64,000 nucleotides of DNA. It comes from Terriglobia bacterium. GTDB taxonomy: Bacteria; Acidobacteriota; Vicinamibacteria; Vicinamibacterales; CAVVIG01. Where the stretch lies: assembly GCA_020073005.1 (NCBI GenBank), contig JAIQFX010000026.1, positions 1-64,000 on the forward strand, in the 5' to 3' direction. Each line of letters begins with the position of its first letter. The stretch's first letter is position 1. Below the pieces are notes generated by a model. It had not been told where the DNA came from, searched no databases, and saw only the letters and a list, made by a program, of their open reading frames with translations. This document shows positions 505 to 34,382 of this stretch, piece after piece. A program made the position numbers and the translations under genes.

Positions 505-2961
505 ATGACGCGTCGCTCCATCACGCGTCGCACGTCAGTGCTTCGTTCCCGCCTCATCGTCCTGCTGCTGTTCATCGGCAGCGGTGCGGCCGCGCTCATC
601 TACGAAGTCGTCTGGTTTCAGCTTCTCCAGCTCGTCATCGGATCGTCGAGCATCTCCATGGGCGTGCTGCTCGGCACGTTCATGGGCGGCATGGGACTCG
701 GGAGCCTGCTCGTGCCTCGCCTGATCGCGGAGCGCCGCCATCCGCTGCGCGTGTACGCGTGGCTCGAGCTCGCGATCGGTGTCGCCGCAGTGCTGCTGCT
801 GAGCGTCATGCCGCTCGTCGGCCGCGTCTATACGGCGTGGGGCGGGCAGGGCGTCGCGGGATTCCTGGTGCGCGGTCTTGTCGCGGGCGTCTGTCTGCTG
901 CCGCCGACGCTCGCGATGGGCGCGACGCTGCCCGCAATCGCACGCTGGGTGGCCATGACGCCGCCCGGCGTGTCGTGGCTCGGACGGTTCTACGCGGGCA
1001 ACATCGCCGGCGCCGTCGCCGGATGCCTGCTCGCGGGCTTCTATCTGCTGCGCGTCTTCGACGTCGCGGTCGCGTCGTACTTCGCGGTCGCCGTCAACGT
1101 CGCCGTCGCCGCCGTCGCATTCGTCCTTGCCCGCGCGAGCACGCCGATTCCGGCGAGGCCGGCGCGCGTTCGCGTCTCGTTCGCGGTCACGCCGGTGCAT
1201 GTCGCGATCGCGCTGTCGGGTTTCTGCGCGATGGCCGCCGAAGTGGTCTGGACCCGGTTGCTCGGGCTGCTGTTCGGCGCGACCGTCTACACGTTCGCGA
1301 TCGTGCTCGCGGTGTTCCTGATCGGCCTCGGCCTCGGCAGCGCCGCCGTCTCCGCGTGGTCGCGTACGCCCGCGCGCGCACGGTTCGCGCTCGCGTGGTG
1401 CCAATGGCTGGCCGTCGCCGCGATCGCGTGGACGGCGCACGCGCTGATGACCTCGCTCCCGTACTGGCCGAGCGCGGCGTCCATCTCGAAGAGCATGGCG
1501 GTGGACTTCCGGATCGATTTTGTGCGCGCGCTGTGGGCCGTCCTGCCGGCGCCGATCCTCTGGGGCGCGAGCCTCCCGCTTGCGCTGGCCGCCGCCGCCG
1601 ATGGCGAAGACGACCCGGCGCGCATCGTCGGTGGCGTGTACGCGGCCAACACGATCGGCGCCATTCTCGGCGCGGTCGGCGCGAGCCTGTTCCTCGTCGC
1701 GTCGATCGGCTCGCAGCACACGCAGCAACTGATGATGGCGGCCGCCTCGCTGGCTGCCGTGTGCGCATGGGGATCTGTAGGCCGGGTCCTTCCGGACCCG
1801 GCAAGGCAGGCGGGTCCACAGGGCCCGCCCTATATGTCATCTCCGCCCTACATCCGCATCGCCGCGCTCGCCGTGGCGGCGCTGCTGATGACGACCGTGC
1901 CGCCGCTGCCCGGCGTGCTCGTGGCGTACGGACGCAACGCCGCCGCGTGGGCGGGCCACACCGGCGAGATCTTCTACGTCGGCGAAGGGATGAACTCGTC
2001 CGTCGCCGTGTCACGCTCGACCGACGGGGTCCTCAACTATCACAACGCCGGCAAGATTCAGGCGTCGAGCCAGCCGCAGGACATGCGCCTACAGCGGGTC
2101 CTCGGGCACCTGACGACGCTCGTGGCGCCGAACCCGAGGTCGGTGCTCGTCATCGGCTGCGGCGCGGGCGTGACGGCCGGCGCGGTCAGCGTCAACCCGC
2201 GAGTGGAGCGCGTGACCATCGCCGAGATCGAACCGCTCGTGCCGCGCGTGATCTCCGCGCACTTCAGCGGCGCGAACGCCGACGTCGTGCGCAATCCGAA
2301 AACGCGCATCCAGATCGACGATGCGCGGCATTATCTGCTCACGTCGAGAGAGACGTTCGACGCGATCACGTCGGACCCGCTCGATCCGTGGGTGAAAGGC
2401 GCCGCGACGCTCTACACGAAGGAGTTCTTCGAGCTCACGCGCCGGCGCCTCAATCCCGGCGGGGTCGTCACGCTCTTCGTGCAGCTCTACGAGAGCAGTC
2501 CCGCGGCGGTGAAGAGCGAAGTCGCGACCTTCTTCGACGTCTATCCGAACGGCGTCGTCTGGGGCAATACGTTCGAGGGGCAGGCAGAGGATCTGGTGCT
2601 GATGGGATCGGTGGAGCCGCTCGCGCTCGATCTCGACTGGATGGAATGGGGCTGGCGGCAACCCGAGTACGCCGGCGTCCGGCAATCGCTTGGCGAGATT
2701 GACATCCACTCGGTGATCGATTTGCTCGGCAACTATGGCGGGCGCGCGGCCGATCTCGCGCCGTGGCTGGCGGACGCCGCGATCACGCGCGATCGCGACC
2801 TCCGGCTGCAGTATCTGGCGGGATTGGGGTTGAACCTGCACGTCGGCCGCAGCATCTACGCCGAGATGCTGCGGTACCGACGTTTCCCCGTCGACATGTT
2901 CACAGGATCCGAGCAACAGCTCTGGGATCTGCGTCAGGCCATCGAGGGACCGAAAGAGTAG
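505..2961 (+). CDS. Fused polytopic membrane / spermidine synthase-like protein
   Basis: An 818-residue protein. The N-terminal half is a long hydrophobic region with many predicted transmembrane helices. The C-terminal part (about residues 530-720) resembles the Rossmann methyltransferase-like fold of spermidine synthases: VLVIGCGAGVTAGA glycine-rich loop, an acidic residue in IAEIEPLV, DDARHYL, then a DAITSDPLDPW segment. This layout is the known membrane-fused SpeE-like family, whose substrate is generally unproven. Polyamine synthesis is therefore only a family-level guess. An ATG at 505 is used because it directly precedes the first hydrophobic helix. Between two hydrophobic helices, near residues 424-450, an in-frame insertion encoded by a palindromic repeat adds a Pro/Gly-rich loop (separate entry). 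The gene ends 4 bp from a convergent gene. Confidence 0.75.
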   Translation: MTRRSITRRTSVLRSRLIVLLLFIGSGAAALIYEVVWFQLLQLVIGSSSISMGVLLGTFMGGMGLGSLLVPRLIAERRHPLRVYAWLELAIGVAAVLLLSVMPLVGRVYTAWGGQGVAGFLVRGLVAGVCLLPPTLAMGATLPAIARWVAMTPPGVSWLGRFYAGNIAGAVAGCLLAGFYLLRVFDVAVASYFAVAVNVAVAAVAFVLARASTPIPARPARVRVSFAVTPVHVAIALSGFCAMAAEVVWTRLLGLLFGATVYTFAIVLAVFLIGLGLGSAAVSAWSRTPARARFALAWCQWLAVAAIAWTAHALMTSLPYWPSAASISKSMAVDFRIDFVRALWAVLPAPILWGASLPLALAAAADGEDDPARIVGGVYAANTIGAILGAVGASLFLVASIGSQHTQQLMMAAASLAAVCAWGSVGRVLPDPARQAGPQGPPYMSSPPYIRIAALAVAALLMTTVPPLPGVLVAYGRNAAAWAGHTGEIFYVGEGMNSSVAVSRSTDGVLNYHNAGKIQASSQPQDMRLQRVLGHLTTLVAPNPRSVLVIGCGAGVTAGAVSVNPRVERVTIAEIEPLVPRVISAHFSGANADVVRNPKTRIQIDDARHYLLTSRETFDAITSDPLDPWVKGAATLYTKEFFELTRRRLNPGGVVTLFVQLYESSPAAVKSEVATFFDVYPNGVVWGNTFEGQAEDLVLMGSVEPLALDLDWMEWGWRQPEYAGVRQSLGEIDIHSVIDLLGNYGGRAADLAPWLADAAITRDRDLRLQYLAGLGLNLHVGRSIYAEMLRYRRFPVDMFTGSEQQLWDLRQAIEGPKE
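1776..1830. repeat. Palindromic repeat inserted in frame inside a gene
   Basis: Two adjacent hairpins lie inside the coding sequence. The first has arms GCCGGGTCC (1781-1789) and GGACCCGGC (1794-1802) around TTCC, a perfect 9-bp stem. The second has arms GGCGGGTCC (1809-1817) and GGGCCCGCC (1821-1829), 9 bp with one G-T pair. They are preceded by CTGTAG. The frame is kept and the encoded loop joins two transmembrane helices. It looks like an intergenic-type repeat that became coding. Confidence 0.7.
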
Positions 2962-2964
2962 CGC

Positions 2965-3909
2965 TTACCGGGACGTCGTCGACGCTCCGCCTTTCACGCT
3001 GACGGCGACGTGCGCGTTGGACCAGCAGCACTGGAAGCCGCCGCCGCCTTCACCGGATTGATCGTTGGCCTGCACGCGCAGGATGTAGTCGCCCGGCGCG
3101 CTGAACGTCGCGGTCGTCGACGCCTTGCCGCCGTCGGCGCGATCGATCGACGGCTTCACGCTGTCGAACTTCACGCTGCCGGGACCGCGGTACATGCTCC
3201 ATGTGATCGACAACGCGGGTGGAGCAGGAGGCGCGCCCGCGCCGCCACGGCCCGCGGCCGCTCCGCGTCCGCGCTGGGGCGTCGGCCGTTCACCGACGTT
3301 CACTCTCGCGCCTTCGTCGGTCACCCACGTCGTGAGCGCGAGCGGATTCGGGACCGTCGTGCTGTAGCTCGCGGCGATGCCGACCGGCGGTCCGGTGAAC
3401 GCGGGGCCGTCGGCCTGGAACTTCAGCACGGGCGGCGTGTTCTGCGATCCCGCATCGAGGTACGGCTCGACGACCCAATCCGCTTTCAGATGCATCGGGA
3501 TCACGTTGGTCTGGCCGTTGGCGACGAGCGTCCAGGTCAGCTGCTTCGTCCCGAAATCCTTCGGGACTTTGATCGGGAACACGCCGTACTGGCGTCCCGT
3601 GAGGAAGTGCGTCGGCTGACCCTGATCAGGCCCGCCCGGCTCGATCCGGTTGTTGGGCCCGATCGGGATGTCGAGCTCCTGCTTCGCGTTCCGGTTGAAG
3701 TAGCCGACGAGCAGGCTCTGGCTGCCATCCTTGTTGTAGAACCAGCCCTCGAAGGCCGCCGTCACGCCCTGGCCCGCGTTGCGAATCGTGGGCGAGAGCG
3801 GATACGGCGCCGGCGCCTGACCTGACGGCTGCTGGCCGCGGACGAACGCGCCCGTGGCGACGCCGAAGAGCAGGATCAGGCCGGTGAAGGTCGATCGATG
3901 CATTCTCAT
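2965..3909 (-). CDS. Exported protein of unknown function, PHM-cytochrome partner (copy 1)
   Basis: A 314-residue protein starting at the ATG at 3909, chosen because AAGGAGA lies 7 bases upstream. An N-terminal signal peptide (TFTGLILLFGVATGAFVRGQ) is visible. The body has a conserved first half (GWFYNKDGSQSLLVGYFNRN; NNRIEPGGPDQGQPTHF) and an RGRGAAAGRGGAG linker. A C-terminal beta-sandwich-like region (STTATFSAPGDYILRVQAND) ends in FQCCWSNAHVAV with two adjacent cysteines. I do not recognise a named family. A close paralogue sits at 19604-20656, and in both places the gene directly follows a cytochrome-PHM gene in the same orientation (19 bp here). A shared extracytoplasmic complex or substrate is inferred. 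The vicinal Cys pair could bind metal or form a disulfide. Confidence 0.8.
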   Translation of the reverse strand: MRMHRSTFTGLILLFGVATGAFVRGQQPSGQAPAPYPLSPTIRNAGQGVTAAFEGWFYNKDGSQSLLVGYFNRNAKQELDIPIGPNNRIEPGGPDQGQPTHFLTGRQYGVFPIKVPKDFGTKQLTWTLVANGQTNVIPMHLKADWVVEPYLDAGSQNTPPVLKFQADGPAFTGPPVGIAASYSTTVPNPLALTTWVTDEGARVNVGERPTPQRGRGAAAGRGGAGAPPAPPALSITWSMYRGPGSVKFDSVKPSIDRADGGKASTTATFSAPGDYILRVQANDQSGEGGGGFQCCWSNAHVAVSVKGGASTTSR

Positions 3910-3928
3910 TCGAAGTCTCCTTCGCCGC

Positions 3929-5278
3929 TCACTGCCGCTCGTTGTTGACGGTCGAGGTCTTCGTCGCCGCGGCACGCTTTGCCGTCTCGGCCTTGAACTC
4001 CTCGTCGGTGTAGTAGGTGATGTTCAGCCAGGCATGGCCCATCTCGTCGACGGTGCGATCGCCCCAGCCGACCCACTGATTGGGATCGGGATTGGCCTTG
4101 TTGTTCGACGTGTTGTCGTACCACGTGACGAAGTGGAGGATCGTGCCCTTCGCCAGCAGCGGCGCGACGTCATCGTCGTAGATGTACATGTTGTGCCAGT
4201 TGAAATTGAAGTCGCTGATCTGGCTCAGCATCTCGCGGCGGCCGTCGGCGTAGATCGCTTCCATCGACATGCCCTTGCCGCGCAGGTGCAGGTGCGCCTG
4301 GAAGTTCTCGATGCGCGCGTTCTGCCGCAGCACGACGAAGCTCTCGGTCGTCGTGATCTGGTTCGGCGGGATGTCGAGGGCGCGGTTGCCGCCCGTGAAC
4401 GTGTTGAAGAGCGCGAGGACCTCGCGGTGCTTCGGTTCCTGGCCTTTCGGGTAGAACCAGATGCCGAGCTCGACCGTGTCGGTGATCTCTTCGCCGACCG
4501 CGTGATAGTGAATGTCCCACGTGATCTTCGAGCCGGGCAGCATCAGGCGCCCTGAGTCCGGCCGCATCTCGTCCGCGTTCTTGCCGACCGCCCATTCCAT
4601 GAAGAGGCCGTCGCCGGCGACGTCGGGATCGTTGGTGAAGAGCGCCGGATCCATGTCTTCCGGCTGCTGCAGGCGGGCGAGCGCGTGGTGCGTGATCTTG
4701 CGGCCCTGCACCGTCGACGGCTTGATCTCGATCGCGCGCACCCAGCGCGGCTCGGTCAGGCCGGTCGGGATGCTCGGCTTCCACCACGCGTCCTGCGCGA
4801 CGGCGGGCATCGTGTACGGCGTGGACTTGATGACGAGGTCGGGCGGCCCGAGCTTGACCTGCTCGGTCCAGATGTTCTGGTCGTCGTTCCACTTCTTCGG
4901 CGCGGGCATGTCTTTCGGGTCGCCCTTCGGCGCGCCCGAGTTGACCCAGCGGACGATGGTGTCCACCTGATCGTCGCTCAGCGAGCGATCGTTCTTGAAC
5001 TTCTGGATCCCGATCGTGCGGTCGATGTGCCATGGCGGCATCTGGCGCGTGCCGATGCGCTGCGCGATCGACTTCGCCCACGGCCGCACTTCCTCGTACG
5101 TCATGAGCGACATCGGCGCCATCTGGTTCGGCCGGTGGCAGGCCTCGCACTTGTCCTGGAAGATCGGCGCGATGTCCTTGGTGAATGTTGGCGCGGACGC
5201 ATCGGCGGCCATCGCCGCGGGCGCGATCAGAGAGGCGATGGCGGCCAGCGCTCCGCACGCGAGTCTCGGAATACCCAT
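3929..5278 (-). CDS. Exported cytochrome c / PHM-like copper protein (copy 1)
   Basis: A 449-residue protein with a signal peptide ending near AAMA. A heme c motif CEACH lies at residues 44-48. A large domain follows that resembles the copper type II ascorbate-dependent monooxygenase (PHM) fold. Candidate copper ligands are HH at 197-198, HYH at 257-259, HLH at 329-331 and Met413/His415 in DEMGHAW. In PHM the pattern HH...H binds one copper and HxH...M the other, so both sites look populated. The start has AAGGAG seven bases upstream. It is a likely periplasmic or outer-surface redox enzyme with heme as electron donor or acceptor; the substrate is unknown. It is cotranscribed with the gene ending at 2965 and closely paralogous to 18162-19523. 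The 150-bp upstream gap holds no clear promoter, only an A-tract (AAAAAACCC) and CGCGGATC repeats. Confidence 0.85.
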   Translation of the reverse strand: MGIPRLACGALAAIASLIAPAAMAADASAPTFTKDIAPIFQDKCEACHRPNQMAPMSLMTYEEVRPWAKSIAQRIGTRQMPPWHIDRTIGIQKFKNDRSLSDDQVDTIVRWVNSGAPKGDPKDMPAPKKWNDDQNIWTEQVKLGPPDLVIKSTPYTMPAVAQDAWWKPSIPTGLTEPRWVRAIEIKPSTVQGRKITHHALARLQQPEDMDPALFTNDPDVAGDGLFMEWAVGKNADEMRPDSGRLMLPGSKITWDIHYHAVGEEITDTVELGIWFYPKGQEPKHREVLALFNTFTGGNRALDIPPNQITTTESFVVLRQNARIENFQAHLHLRGKGMSMEAIYADGRREMLSQISDFNFNWHNMYIYDDDVAPLLAKGTILHFVTWYDNTSNNKANPDPNQWVGWGDRTVDEMGHAWLNITYYTDEEFKAETAKRAAATKTSTVNNERQ

Positions 5279-5428
5279 GCACGCACTCCTTTTGTAGCAG
5301 CCACTTCGAGGAAACGGATTGCCCGCGCTCGTGCAATCAGGATGCCGAGCAGATGCACCTGATTTGTCGCGGATCCTGCGGAAAAGTGGCGCGGGTTTTT
5401 TCGCGGATCGAGAACTATTTCGCGGAAA

Positions 5429-10560: not shown

Positions 10561-10670
10561 GAATTGGGTAATTGAGTAGTTGGGTAATTGGGTAATCGGC
10601 TGATCGCAGACGCGGGCCGTTGCGCGAGCACTCGATTACCCAATTCCCCGATTACTCAACTACCCAATTG
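10561..10670. repeat. Long imperfect inverted repeat of a GGTAATTG word
   Basis: Two 38-bp arms (10561-10598 and 10633-10670) are complementary apart from a handful of positions, with a 34-base loop. Each arm is itself built from repeated GGTAATT(G/C) words. It fills the gap from the DUF4159 stop to the ribosome binding site of the next gene. Low GC contrasts with the surroundings. Confidence 0.65.
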
Positions 10671-10682
10671 CCAGGAGGACTC

Positions 10683-18161: not shown

Positions 18162-19523
18162 ATGGTTAAGTCTTTAAGCGCACTGACTGTAGGCGCGGTT
18201 CTGATCCTTTCGGGATCGGCGCGCGCCGCTGACGCGGCGAAGACGCCGACGTTCACGAAGGACATTGCTCCGATTTTCCAGGCGAAGTGCGAGGCCTGCC
18301 ATCGCCCGGACAACATGGCGCCCATGTCGCTTCAGACGTATGAAGAAGCGCGCCCGTGGGTGAAGTCGATTGCGGCCCGCGTCGGCGGACGCCAGATGCC
18401 GCCGTGGCACATCGACAAGACGGTCGGCATCCAGAAGTTCAAGAACGATCGGTCGCTGAGCGACGACCAGATCGACACGATCCTCCGCTGGGCCGCCGCG
18501 GGCGCGCCGAAGGGCGATCCCAAGGACATGCCGGCGCCGAAAGTCTGGGCGGATGACACTGTCTGGCAGGAGGCGACCAAGCTGGGCCCGCCGGATCTGG
18601 TCGTCAAGTCGCCGGAATACACGATGCCCGCCGTCGCGCAGGACGCCTGGTGGCGGCCGAGCGTGCCGACCGGTCTCACCGAGCCGCGGTGGGTGCGCGC
18701 GATTGAAATCCGCCCGGTCGGCAAAGGCGCCCGCAAGATCACGCATCACGCGCTCGCGCGCCTGCAGCAGCCGGAGGATATGGATCCGGCGCTCTTCACC
18801 AACGATCCGAACGTCGCCGGCGACGGCCTCTTCATGGAATGGGCCGTGGGCAAGAACGCCGACGAGATGCGTCCGGACTCGGGCCGCCTGATGCTGCCCG
18901 GCTCGAAGATCGTGTGGGAGATGCACTATCACGCGGTCGGCGAGGAAATCTCGGGTCACACCGAGCTCGCCGTGTGGTTCTATCCGAAGGGGCAGGAGCC
19001 GAAGCACCGCGAAGTGCTGGCGCTGTTCAACTCGTTCTCGGGCAACTCGCCCGGCGCGCGCGCCCTCGACATCCAGCCGAACCAGATCACGACGACCGAG
19101 AGCTTCATCACGTTGAAGCAGAACGCGCGGATCGAGAACTTCCAGGCCCACATGCACCTGCGCGGCAAGGGCATGTCGATGGAAGCCATCTATCCGGACG
19201 GCCGTCGCGAGCTGCTGAGCCAGATCAGCGACTTCAACTTCAACTGGCACAACATGTACATCTACGCGGATGACGTGGCGCCGCTGCTCGCGAAGGGCAC
19301 GATCCTCCACCTCATCGCGTGGTACGACAACACGAAGAACAACAAGTCGAACCCGGATCCGGATCAGTGGGTGGGCTACGGCGACCGCACGGTCGACGAG
19401 ATGGGCCACGCGTGGCTGAACATCACCTACTTCAGCGACGAAGAATTCAAGGCGGAGACGGCCAAGCGCGCGGCGGCGACGGCGACGTCGACGGCCGCTG
19501 ACCGTCAGCAGCCTCAGCAGTAA
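18162..19523 (+). CDS. Exported cytochrome c / PHM-like copper protein (copy 2)
   Basis: A 453-residue paralogue of 3929-5278, matching it along almost its whole length. The start ATG at 18162 has AAGGAG 5 bases upstream. A signal peptide (LTVGAVLILSGSARAAD) is followed by heme motif CEACH, then the PHM-like domain with THHAL, MHYHAVG, AHMHLRG and DEMGHAW, so all candidate copper ligands are kept. Differences from copy 1 include ALFNSFSGNSPGARALDI (a few extra residues) and a Thr/Ser-rich tail. A likely extracytoplasmic oxidoreductase. A strong terminator lies just after the stop, before its usual partner gene. Confidence 0.85.
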   Translation: MVKSLSALTVGAVLILSGSARAADAAKTPTFTKDIAPIFQAKCEACHRPDNMAPMSLQTYEEARPWVKSIAARVGGRQMPPWHIDKTVGIQKFKNDRSLSDDQIDTILRWAAAGAPKGDPKDMPAPKVWADDTVWQEATKLGPPDLVVKSPEYTMPAVAQDAWWRPSVPTGLTEPRWVRAIEIRPVGKGARKITHHALARLQQPEDMDPALFTNDPNVAGDGLFMEWAVGKNADEMRPDSGRLMLPGSKIVWEMHYHAVGEEISGHTELAVWFYPKGQEPKHREVLALFNSFSGNSPGARALDIQPNQITTTESFITLKQNARIENFQAHMHLRGKGMSMEAIYPDGRRELLSQISDFNFNWHNMYIYADDVAPLLAKGTILHLIAWYDNTKNNKSNPDPDQWVGYGDRTVDEMGHAWLNITYFSDEEFKAETAKRAAATATSTAADRQQPQQ

Positions 19524-19543
19524 GAGCGGATTCATCGGACCCT

Positions 19544-19585
19544 GAGGCGCCGTTCCAGATTTCTTGGACGGCGCCTCTTTTTTTT
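19544..19585 (+). terminator. Strong intrinsic terminator between cassette genes
   Basis: A perfect 10-bp stem GAGGCGCCGT / ACGGCGCCTC (19544-19553, 19568-19577), extendable by two pairs, is followed by eight T (19578-19585). It lies 20 bp after the stop of the cytochrome-PHM gene and 18 bp before the start of its partner, so it should attenuate or separate their expression. Confidence 0.85.
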
Positions 19586-19603
19586 GAACCAGGGGAGTCA
19601 CGG

Positions 19604-20656
19604 ATGCGTGGAAGTCGAGTGGCCGTCGCAGGGATGATGGTGGCGTTTCTCGTGGGAGGCGCGCTCGTGCGGGCCGGTCAGCAGGGCGTCGGTCAGACGC
19701 CGAGCCAGTTCCCGCTCTCGAACACGATTCGCGAGCGCGGCACGAGCGTCACGGGCGCGTTCGAAGGGTGGTACTTCGACAAGGACGGCAGCGTCCGCGT
19801 CCTCGTCGGCTACTTCAATCGCAACACGAAGCAGGAGCTCGACATTCCCGCGGGCCCGAACAACCGGATCGAACCGGGCGGTCCTGACCAGGGCCAGCCG
19901 ACGCATTTCGAGACCGGCCGGCAGTGGGGCGTGTTCACGATCAAGGTGCCGAAGGATTTCGGCACGAAGAAACTGACGTGGACCATCGTCGCCAACGGTC
20001 TCACCAACGCCATCACGCTCCACACGCAGCCCGACTACGTCGTCGAGCCGTTCGAGGACGCGGCGAACAAGAACACGCCGCCCAAGATCAAGTTCGATCC
20101 GAACGGCCAGTGGTTCACGGGACCGCCGACGGTGACGGCGGCGACCTACAGCGCGACGGTCAGCGAGCCGCTCACGCTGACGACGTGGGCGACCGACGAG
20201 GGCCCCAAGATCAACATCCCCGAGGGACGCGGCCGCGGCCGCGGACGAGGCGCGGCCGGAGCGACGGGTGCGACCGGTGCGACGGGCGGCGATGCGGCCG
20301 CTGGGGCTGGCGCCGGGCGAGGTGGACGTGGCGGGCGCGGGGCGGCAGGTGCGACCGGCGCCATCGGCGCTGCGGATGCCGCGGCCGGCGGATTTCAGCC
20401 GGCTCCGCCCCTCGCCGTGTCGTGGCACGTATTCCGCGGGCCGGGCCCCGTCAAGTTCGATCCGGTGTCGCCGCGCGTCGATATCCCGAACGGCGGCAAG
20501 GCGTCGACGACGGCCACGTTCAGTGTGCCGGGCGACTACACGCTCCGCGTGCAGGGCAACGACAGCACGGGCAACGGCGGCGGCGGCTTCCAGTGCTGCT
20601 GGTCCAACGCCTACGTTGCGGTCAATGTGAAGCCGGCCACGACAGGCGGGAAGTAA
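19604..20656 (+). CDS. Exported protein of unknown function, PHM-cytochrome partner (copy 2)
   Basis: A 350-residue paralogue of 2965-3909, with a signal peptide (VAGMMVAFLVGGALVRAG). The conserved first half (GWYFDKDGSVRVLVGYFNRN, NNRIEPGGPDQGQPTHFETGRQ) and the C-terminal FQCCWSNAYVAV are retained. The central linker is much longer than in copy 1 and collagen-like: GATGATGATGG plus RGRGRGRG and RGGRGGRG runs. Length difference between the copies lies almost wholly in this linker, as expected for slippage-prone repeats. The ribosome site is AGGGGAG. The preceding terminator may lower its expression relative to the cytochrome-PHM gene. Function is unknown. Confidence 0.8.
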   Translation: MRGSRVAVAGMMVAFLVGGALVRAGQQGVGQTPSQFPLSNTIRERGTSVTGAFEGWYFDKDGSVRVLVGYFNRNTKQELDIPAGPNNRIEPGGPDQGQPTHFETGRQWGVFTIKVPKDFGTKKLTWTIVANGLTNAITLHTQPDYVVEPFEDAANKNTPPKIKFDPNGQWFTGPPTVTAATYSATVSEPLTLTTWATDEGPKINIPEGRGRGRGRGAAGATGATGATGGDAAAGAGAGRGGRGGRGAAGATGAIGAADAAAGGFQPAPPLAVSWHVFRGPGPVKFDPVSPRVDIPNGGKASTTATFSVPGDYTLRVQGNDSTGNGGGGFQCCWSNAYVAVNVKPATTGGK

Positions 20657-23214: not shown

Positions 23215-24495
23215 GTGCCTGTGAAGACTGTCAAGACCACCTGCATCGCCGTCTTGTGCGGCCTGTTGTTCTGCGCCACGGGAGCAGTGTCAGCATCGGC
23301 GGCCACGCCGTGCCCGGTGGCCGACGTCGCGCAGGACCTCGTCAGCCCGAATCCGCAGATCCGCCTCAAGGCGGGCCGCGTGCTCCGGCAGGCGGCCTGC
23401 TTCGGCGCGGCGTTGCCACTGGCGACGCTCATCGCCGATCCGGTGGACGAGGTGCAGCTCGAAGGGATCGCCGGCGAAGTGGCGATCTTCCTGAACAAGA
23501 ACGCCGTTCCGAAGCGCCGCGTCGGCTTCCTGATCGAAGTCCGGCACGAGGTGGCATCCGACGCGTTCTGGGCGGGACCGATGACGAGCACCGGCCGTCC
23601 GGCGCCGCCGCAGGTCCTCGCGGCCTTGCGCACGGCGGCACACGATGACAACCCGCGCGTCGCGGTCGAGGCGCTGTACGCGTTCGGCGCGCTGGCGTCC
23701 GAAGTGAAGGGCACCGCACGGCAGGAGCTTCAGGCGGCGAACGGCCCGTACCTCGCCGATCTCGCCGGCTCCTCGCAGATGGAGATGCGCCTGGCCGCCG
23801 TGGCCGTGATCGGCCGTCTCTACGCGCGGTGGCCCGGTGAGAATCTGGAAGAATCCGTGGGACCGGCGATGGTCACGGCGCTTGGCGACGTCAACGACGC
23901 GGTCAAGGTCGTGGCGGCGCGCGGCATCGGCGGGATGCGGTACGAGCGCGCGCTGCAGCCGCTGACGGATCTGTTCACGGCGCGCGGCAAGGGCGACGTG
24001 GCCGAGGCCGCGGCCGATGCCCTCGCGCGGATCGCGCATCCGTCGAGCATGCCGCTCTTCACGAGCCTGATCACGAGCCCGGAAGCCCCGCTGCGCGCGA
24101 TTGCCATCGCGGGCCTCGCGCGCGGCGGAGATCGACGCGCGCTCGCCGACATCGTCGACAATCTGGCATTCGAGCGGTCCGACGAGGTTCTTCTGTCGGT
24201 GAACTTCGCGTGGATCATGCTGGAGAACACCACAATCGACCCGCTGGGCGAGGGGCTTCTGAAGGCGTCGGGGCACGACCTGGCGCTCGCGTATCTCATC
24301 GAAGTCGCGACGCTGCGCCCGGCGAAGTTCCTGGCCTACGCGATCGATCCGGACCCGCGGCTGCGCGCCGACGTGGCCGACATTCTTGGCGTGACCCGCG
24401 ATCCGCGCGGGCTGCCGCTGGTCCAGCCGATGCTGAAGGACAAGAACCCGCTCGTCGTGCAGGCCGCCGAGCGCGCGATCGCGCGGATGCAATAG
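23215..24495 (+). CDS. Exported HEAT-repeat protein
   Basis: A 426-residue protein with GTG start and GAGGAGG 4 bases upstream. A signal peptide (IAVLCGLLFCATGAVSASA) is followed by a run of HEAT-type helical repeats: DLVSPNPQIRLKAGRVL, DDNPRVAVEALYAFGAL, GDVNDAVKVVAARGIGG, SPEAPLRAIAIAGLARGGD, KDKNPLVVQAAERAI. It is a protein-interaction scaffold outside the cytoplasm. No catalytic motif was seen. The paired Cys in TPCPVAD and RQAACFG may form a disulfide. It converges on the ketopantoate reductase-like gene. Confidence 0.75.
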   Translation: MPVKTVKTTCIAVLCGLLFCATGAVSASAATPCPVADVAQDLVSPNPQIRLKAGRVLRQAACFGAALPLATLIADPVDEVQLEGIAGEVAIFLNKNAVPKRRVGFLIEVRHEVASDAFWAGPMTSTGRPAPPQVLAALRTAAHDDNPRVAVEALYAFGALASEVKGTARQELQAANGPYLADLAGSSQMEMRLAAVAVIGRLYARWPGENLEESVGPAMVTALGDVNDAVKVVAARGIGGMRYERALQPLTDLFTARGKGDVAEAAADALARIAHPSSMPLFTSLITSPEAPLRAIAIAGLARGGDRRALADIVDNLAFERSDEVLLSVNFAWIMLENTTIDPLGEGLLKASGHDLALAYLIEVATLRPAKFLAYAIDPDPRLRADVADILGVTRDPRGLPLVQPMLKDKNPLVVQAAERAIARMQ

Positions 24496-24560
24496 AGAAA
24501 ACTGAAAACTGAACACTGCAAAGAGAGAACTGGGAGGTGTTCAGTTTTCTCTTTTCACTT
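24496..24560. terminator. Probable bidirectional terminator built from ACTGAAAA words
   Basis: Between two convergent stops lie left-arm words GAGAAAACTGAAAACTGAA and right-arm TTCAGTTTTCTCTTTT, which can pair through ACTGAACAC/GTGTTCAGT and flanks. A-rich on one side and T-rich on the other, it could work in both directions. It is also a member of the ACTGAAAA word-repeat family. Confidence 0.5.
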
Positions 24561-24561
24561 T

Positions 24562-25446
24562 TCACTTTTCAGTTTCCATCTGCCTGATAATCGCCGTCAG
24601 CGCCTGATTCACAGGACACGCGATCCCGAACTTCGCGCCGAGCCGGACGACCGCCCCGTTCAGAAACTCGATCTCCGTTCGCCGCCCTTTCAACAGATCC
24701 TGCTGCATCGAGGACAGGTTCCTCGACGCGCGATAACCGTCGTTGATGGCGGACACGAGATCGCCTTCGAGCTCGACGCCGTCGCGCCGGGCGACGCGCA
24801 CGCATTCATTCACAATCAAACGCTTGAGCGGGTTCAGCCGTTCGTCGGCGATGGCGCCGACTTCCGTTCGGGTGATCGCGTTGATCGGGTTGATCACGCA
24901 GTTGACGACGAGCTTGCGCCACATCTCGTCCTTGATGCGATCGGTCACGCGGCCATCCAGCCCGCAGCGCGTGAAGGCGTCCGCGATGGCGGCGCTGACG
25001 GGGCTGTTCTCGATGGACGTGTAGCTGCGGACCTTGAGCTCGACGACGCCCGGCGTCCGGAAGATCGCGCCGAAGTGCGTGATCGCCCGCAGCACGCGGC
25101 AGCGGCCGCCGATCGCCGCCTTGACGACGTCCTCGCTGTACAGCCCGTTCTGGACGCACAGGATGATCGTGTCCGCGCGCACGAGCGGCGCGAGGCTGCG
25201 CGCCGCCGCCTCGTTGTCGCTGACCTTCGTCGTCAGAAGAACAAGCGTGTCCGGCGCGAGCGCCGTGAGGGCCGGCACGGCACGAACGCGATGCGTGCCT
25301 TCCTCCGCGCCGGTCACCCGGAGGCCTTCGGTGTTGATCGTACGGGCGTGCGCCTCGCGCGTGACGAGCGTGACGTCGTACGCCGTCGAAAGTCTTGCGC
25401 CGTACACGCTGCCGATGGCGCCCGCGCCGAACACGACGATTTGCAG
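24562..25446 (-). CDS. Ketopantoate reductase (ApbA/PanE) family protein
   Basis: About 294 residues. An N-terminal Rossmann motif FGAGAIGSVYGARL is followed by LLTTKVSDNEAAA and QNGLYSEDVV. The conserved MWRKLVVNCVINPINAITRTEVG lies in the C-terminal helical domain, including the lysine and asparagine used in catalysis. It probably reduces 2-dehydropantoate or a similar 2-keto acid with NADPH. No ATG/GTG/TTG fits the expected N-terminus except a late GTG at 25434 that cuts the first strand. A CTG at 25446 gives MQIVVFGAGAIGS, matching relatives, with GGGAG 8 bases upstream; a CTG start is therefore proposed. Confidence 0.82.
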   Translation of the reverse strand: MQIVVFGAGAIGSVYGARLSTAYDVTLVTREAHARTINTEGLRVTGAEEGTHRVRAVPALTALAPDTLVLLTTKVSDNEAAARSLAPLVRADTIILCVQNGLYSEDVVKAAIGGRCRVLRAITHFGAIFRTPGVVELKVRSYTSIENSPVSAAIADAFTRCGLDGRVTDRIKDEMWRKLVVNCVINPINAITRTEVGAIADERLNPLKRLIVNECVRVARRDGVELEGDLVSAINDGYRASRNLSSMQQDLLKGRRTEIEFLNGAVVRLGAKFGIACPVNQALTAIIRQMETEK

Positions 25447-34323: not shown

Positions 34324-34375
34324 TGTAGCGCGAGCCCCTTAGGTTGACTTGTAGCGCGAGCCTTTCAGGCGAGCG
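34324..34375. repeat. Two direct copies of TGTAGCGCGAGCC
   Basis: TGTAGCGCGAGCC occurs at 34324-34336 and 34350-34362, 26 bp apart, each followed by a TTAGG/TTCAGG half. The second copy can form a short stem (GCCT/AGGC). The leader TGTAG plus GC-rich stem recalls the intragenic repeat at 1776. Confidence 0.5.
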
Positions 34376-34382
34376 AGGTCCC

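Follow-up and report, generated by a model that had tools for sequence, protein, structure and literature searches.

Results

The window (i.e., the whole 64,000-nucleotide stretch of DNA that was analysed) carries on its plus strand an intact open reading frame at positions 505–2961, whose 818-aa product is a fused multi-helix membrane/spermidine-synthase-like protein, matching Spermine_synth (PF01564) at residues 529–657 (E 1e-17) and passing the cut-off of NF037959 (fused MFS/spermidine synthase). Direct reading of positions 1776–1834 of this gene (TGTAGGCCGGGTCCTTCCGGACCCGGCAAGGCAGGCGGGTCCACAGGGCCCGCCCTATA) revealed two inverted palindromes, TGTAGGCCGGGTCC-ttcc-GGACCCGGC and GGCGGGTCC-aca-GGGCCCGCC-CTATA, so that the pair of in-frame hairpins within a membrane-protein gene described in the initial annotation is indeed present. 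The first palindrome (REP 1, 1776–1802, plus strand) consists of an unpaired head, TGTAG, with its GTAG at 1777–1780 on the 5′ side of the stem, followed by the hairpin GCCGGGTCC-TTCC-GGACCCGGC, whose arms occupy 1781–1789 and 1794–1802 around the loop TTCC; it reads as SVGRVLPDPA. A 6-bp spacer (AAGGCA, 1803–1808) separates the hairpins. The second palindrome (REP 2, 1807–1834, minus strand) is inverted and consists of the hairpin GGCGGGTCC-ACA-GGGCCCGCC (arms 1809–1817 and 1821–1829, loop ACA, one G-T pair) and then a degenerate head, CTATA, which ends at 1834 and mirrors the TGTAG head (the consensus being CTACA); it reads as QAGPQGPPY. Both hairpins thus have 9-bp stems and loops of 3–4 nt, and the DNA folding z-score of the element was −2.49, with 2 of 200 shuffles folding equally well. 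When scored with a covariance model built from 24 copies of the repeat (family A, described below), REP 1 reached 43.2 bits (E 4e-6) and REP 2 reached 32.6 bits on the minus strand (E 0.0014), and the pair at 1776–1834 was the one place in the window where family A was found. A tentative candidate for a truncated third REP head lies at 1843–1852 on the minus strand (CCGCCCTACA, i.e., TGTAGGGCGG) and is the single TGTAGGGCGG in the window.

The REP pair accounts for codons 424–444 (1774–1836, plus strand), which form the loop joining the helix at residues 371–423 to that at 448–462. In an AlphaFold2 model of the protein, made with 32 orthologues (mean pLDDT 87.5), one helix ends at 423 and the next starts at 448, and the confidence minimum (residues 431–440, pLDDT 54) falls inside the REP-encoded part; the codon reading and the predicted helix ends together agree with the earlier proposal that the palindromes encode an inter-helix loop. 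The insert is predicted to yield the tryptic peptides VLPDPAR and QAGPQGPPYMSSPPYIR, and we infer that the REP-encoded loop is nearly neutral and does get translated. Among 116 related sequences the loop is mostly 35–50 codons long and mostly not built of these palindromes, as compared to 57 codons in the window gene, and the orthologue loops, whose comparison the initial annotation had suggested, are shorter, different, and without the window palindrome. No close relative was found whose site at the window position is empty, and since the nearest orthologue shares only 66% identity, the highest reached, the exact pre-insertion form of the loop is beyond reconstruction. Compared with typical orthologues, the window loop is a net 7–9 codons longer, which is less than the 20 codons of the REP element, so either part of the ancestral loop has gone or the loops of the other genes have altered in length independently. 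We do not claim a shared, decayed insertion in the nearest orthologue (G014): part of the window insert matches there at 15/18, but scores about as high were reached by 50 of 2000 shuffles and by reversed-sequence controls.

Family A is a dispersed repeat with the consensus TGTAG-G[CG]CGGGTCC-tttc-GGACCCG[GC]C, and its REPIN-like units are two inverted copies with the GTAG heads outside, an arrangement common to the window pair and to a pair at C148:13818-13879 of the window's own genome (G000). In that genome (5.86 Mb, 179 contigs) the exact pattern CGGGTCC-N1-8-GGACCCG occurs 24 times, with none for the reversed-pattern control, and the consensus of 24 copies is TGTAGGCCGGGTCCTTTnGGACCCGGC, with the head TGTAGG. 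A covariance-model search returned 48 matches at E up to 1, which represent ∼43 distinct palindromes once opposite-strand duplicates are removed. Copies lie both in intergenic DNA and in other genes, the places in which the initial annotation had suggested looking for them. The same model matched at least 159 sites in the congener G001 and at least 161 in the congener G002, with 150 candidates scored per congener; among 27 genomes of the family, 36 copies were found in G016, 23 in G013, and 18 in G025, with none in most other genera, indicating that family A is concentrated in the window's genus and rarer or absent elsewhere. The copies in the window's own genome are fewer than those in its congeners and more degraded, and it is their degradation that shows the window insertion not to be recent. 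Gly and Pro codons in GC-rich DNA easily yield short palindromes, and hairpins in a Gly/Pro/Ala-rich loop of 67% GC DNA could have been a by-product of composition, a view with which the absence of a clear enrichment of generic stems of at least 8 bp in the loop across orthologues is compatible. However, the genome contains 24 exact copies of the stem against a control of zero, these share the GTAG head, and in congeners the stem borders transposase genes; such repetition is a stronger test than the folding score, and the dispersed copies refute a chance origin, to which we attach practically no probability.

The transposase genes in question encode RAYTs (REP-associated tyrosine transposases). 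The RAYT on contig C191 of G002 has four family A REPs on one side and six on the other, that on contig C37 of G001 has nine and four, and the two proteins are 71% identical to each other. The window's own genome has four RAYT genes (PF01797/NF047646), flanked by other GTAG-type hairpins (e.g., TGTAGCGCGACCC-TTTC-AGGGTCGCG) or by other inverted repeats, and family A repeats were found beside none of the four. A second repeat, family B (GTAGTGTCCG[GC]C-TTCA-G[GC]CGGAC), flanks RAYTs of G016 and G025 that are 69% identical to each other, and its pattern occurs 235 times in G016 and 90 times in the window's own genome (reversed-pattern controls 8 and 10, respectively). Repeat family and RAYT lineage therefore go together, like known REP/RAYT systems. 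Elsewhere in the window, at 34325–34376, intergenic REPs of another GTAG family (TGTAGCGCGAGCC-TTTC-AGGCGAGCG) lie between two same-direction genes and match the repeats around the RAYT at C118:12449 of the same genome.

Within the window's own genome, 14 of the ∼43 family A copies lie inside 11 open reading frames, two of which are doubtful as carriers (an 888-aa frame on contig C148 and a frame on contig C30). Clear carriers include a 2-oxoacid dehydrogenase E2, a polysaccharide flippase, an FtsX permease, a PhnP-like metallo-hydrolase, and an N-acetyltransferase. In the E2, whose lipoyl, E3-binding, and catalytic domains span residues 3–75, 98–132, and 162–379, the REP inserts (80–89 and 140–149) fall in both interdomain linkers. 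Nine of the 14 in-gene REPs read as A-G-P-K-G-P-A or close variants, and the flippase pair (GLVLSDPA-AV-AGPKDPAYR) and the window pair (GRVLPDPA-RQ-AGPQGPPYM) are the same element in the same frames in unrelated proteins. In the doubtful frame on C148, a REP pair (G000:C148:17433-17534, L018) joins a glycosyltransferase and a B12-radical-SAM gene in one open frame of 888 codons; these may be separate genes that read-through of an intergenic REP pair has connected, possibly a gene fusion by REP.

A census was also made in 755 kb of G001, on contigs picked for carrying listed matches, so that the density is biased upward. A strict REP pattern with a zero-hit control was used (a looser expression gave many false coding matches), and genes were called with a simple codon-usage caller, Pfam backing most of the carriers. 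The 205 family A copies found (control 0) divide into 144 intergenic, 17 at gene edges, and 44 strictly inside 23 open reading frames; since 88% of this DNA was called coding, in-gene insertions are strongly depleted but far from absent. The frame containing the TAG of the head is never used by these in-gene REPs, and the other five are all used. Of 20 carriers tested, 17 score above the curated cut-off of a Pfam family and one more is just below; in the matched proteins the REPs are extra segments in or between domains. One ABC-2 transporter frame (L271:2199-3500, i.e., G001:C37:42199-43500) contains five family A REPs between residues 81 and 149, and four of the five form a 42-bp tandem array encoding VGRVLSDPP(M/T)WGEF repeats.

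Three loops were found to hold palindromes in more than one gene or genome. The first is that of the window gene itself: in a paralogue within the same genome (C9:4725-7130) it is 72 codons long and holds GTCCGGC-taac-GCCGGAC and GTCCGCCT-tc-AGGCGGAC, both palindromes of family B; in G016 it holds the palindrome GGTCCGCTT-ga-AAGCGGACC and a second, degenerate unit ending in CACTACA; and in G002 and G019 it holds a longer imperfect inverted repeat (family C), for which the status of a dispersed repeat in these two genomes could not be demonstrated. Generic hairpin density across orthologues, 0.77 per kb in the loop against 0.59 elsewhere in the gene, is not clearly raised, and our claim of recurrence is accordingly based on the named repeat families only. 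The second is the flippase loop, which carries the same family A pair in the 83% identical flippase of G001, where another dispersed palindrome of that genome, CCTACGCGTGAAGCTTCGGCGGACCGCCGTAGCCTTGGCGAAGGCGG, is nested in frame inside the first REP hairpin (L252:2146-2192, on contig C57). In G007 the flippase loop holds two hairpins of a further sort; recurrence here thus involves G000/G001 and G007, and perhaps G012. A further copy of the CCTACGCGTGAAGCTTCGGCGGACCGCCGTAGCCTTGGCGAAGGCGG palindrome lies inside a DUF58 gene of G001 (L300:11699-11741).

The third is a loop region of the PhnP-like protein, 19–37 codons long in other genera. Each of the three genomes in the window's genus has family A in this loop, and two of them show in-frame duplications. 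Degraded family A copies are present at the same loop in G013 and G016, neither of which is sister to the window's genus in the gene tree, so that family A was either gained three times or gained once and lost several times. Between species this gene keeps its reading frame while the palindrome varies or decays. This bears on whether such palindromes are kept as RNA or DNA elements (e.g., for mRNA structure or translational pausing between membrane helices), with the loop peptide incidental. The window hairpins are strong in the transcript strand, and REPs elsewhere have been proposed to act as RNA elements (PMC3733652); against this, it is the frame rather than the palindrome that the PhnP-like gene preserves, and the insertion sites are loops and linkers, as tolerance would predict, making a nucleic acid role improbable.

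Discussion

The element at 1776–1834 displays every defining feature of a GTAG REP pair that could be tested, namely a palindrome of 20–40 bp with a stem of 5–13 bp, a GTAG end, a dispersed and mainly intergenic distribution, occurrence as inverted pairs, and flanking of a RAYT in congeners. We conclude that it is very probably a REPIN-like GTAG REP pair inserted in the gene and kept as a frame-open piece in a tolerant inter-helix loop, with a RAYT of the congener type as its most likely mover. A family A pair would have entered the host gene, most likely through the action of the RAYT known from the two congeners, whose part in the window insertion we infer from this linkage. The insert would then have been kept for being open in the reading frame and for falling in a tolerant loop between two membrane helices; more generally, selection would clear most insertions in genes and spare those in linkers and loops. 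Given that the window's own genome lacks a family A RAYT and has fewer, more degraded copies, the element probably survives there as a fossil with no present role beyond that of coding sequence.

REP/BIME sequences of E. coli have a TGTAGGCC head and a hairpin and form pairs of alternating orientation, like the window pair, although stem and loop differ; to our knowledge, copies of these are found almost only outside genes. In REPINs, as defined by Bertels and Rainey (2011, PMC3116915), the mobile unit is an inverted REP pair that goes with a specific RAYT; the window pair likewise consists of two inverted REPs making up one unit linked to a specific RAYT, but its spacer is 6 bp rather than tens of bases, and the REPINs described there are extragenic. 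GTAG and CGTC REPs were defined by Di Nocera et al. (2013, PMC3733652), and the window family shares with their GTAG super-family an unpaired GTAG at one end, a stem within 5–13 bp, a short loop, single and paired units, and a RAYT flanked by repeats; it differs in its stem ([CG]CGGGTCC) and in its host group, which named relatives place in the Vicinamibacterales (Acidobacteriota). From that phylum, the portion of the report on which we draw mentions only Koribacter, with transposases flanked by other inverted repeats.

The initial annotation had compared the element with the palindromic elements of Rickettsia, and the comparison holds for behaviour but not for kinship. Both are palindromes found in frame in many unrelated proteins, with frames reused, which is what would favour assigning the window element to the Rickettsia type in another phylum. 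However, Rickettsia elements carry a CGTC tag and are not known to be served by a transposase, CGTC repeats in general being reported without a dedicated one (PMC3733652), whereas the window element has a GTAG head, a unit of ∼28 bp, and a RAYT linked to it in congeners. A Rickettsia-type origin is consequently very improbable.

That GTAG REPs can be intragenic has already been published: some lie wholly within open reading frames in Opitutus terrae, Thauera, and others, tolerated insertion in loops or linkers was proposed, and different REPs were noted near the same recB site in two Xanthomonas species (Di Nocera et al. 2013, PMC3733652). The phenomenon is known from a few other bacteria and is unusually frequent here; a search of the open-licence literature gave no account of protein-coding REPs in Acidobacteriota. 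The novelty lies in the host group, in the RAYT partner, in how many copies sit inside genes, and in the reuse of the same loops by different families. Two features differ from the 2013 report: several families share a single loop of the same protein family, and one palindrome lies nested within another, in frame.

The reuse of loops raises the question of whether they are favoured landing sites, where a new Gly/Pro linker is useful beyond being tolerated. Other palindrome families in the same loop of the paralogue and of G016, a third kind that G002 and G019 possibly have there, the parallel case of the flippase, and the presence of family A in the PhnP-like loop at three separate places of the gene tree would all accord with this, but tolerance alone predicts the same recurrence, and we regard usefulness as an unlikely explanation for the window loop. 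A broader possibility, which we raise only tentatively, is that RAYT-driven palindromes of Vicinamibacterales are a standing source of new protein loops, with unrelated REP families entering the same few loops repeatedly and independently, even one inside another, and some being kept through genus-level divergence as useful linkers. This uncultivated lineage turns mobile palindromes into coding sequence often enough for one to study how. It offers hundreds of copies per congener genome, an identified partner transposase, and insertions that are shared or lineage-specific and decayed or fresh, and thereby lets one ask which protein sites tolerate, or profit from, palindrome insertions.

Elsewhere in the window, two long inverted repeats, rich in AT and composed of short words in tandem (AATTGGGTAATTG... 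and AAACTGAAAACTG...), lie at 10561–10672 and 24491–24575 of this 67% GC sequence and look like another kind of dispersed repeat. In addition, gene groups at ∼3000–5280 and 18300–20640 resemble mutual duplicates on opposite strands, with shared stretches near 4644/18782 and 3030/20609.
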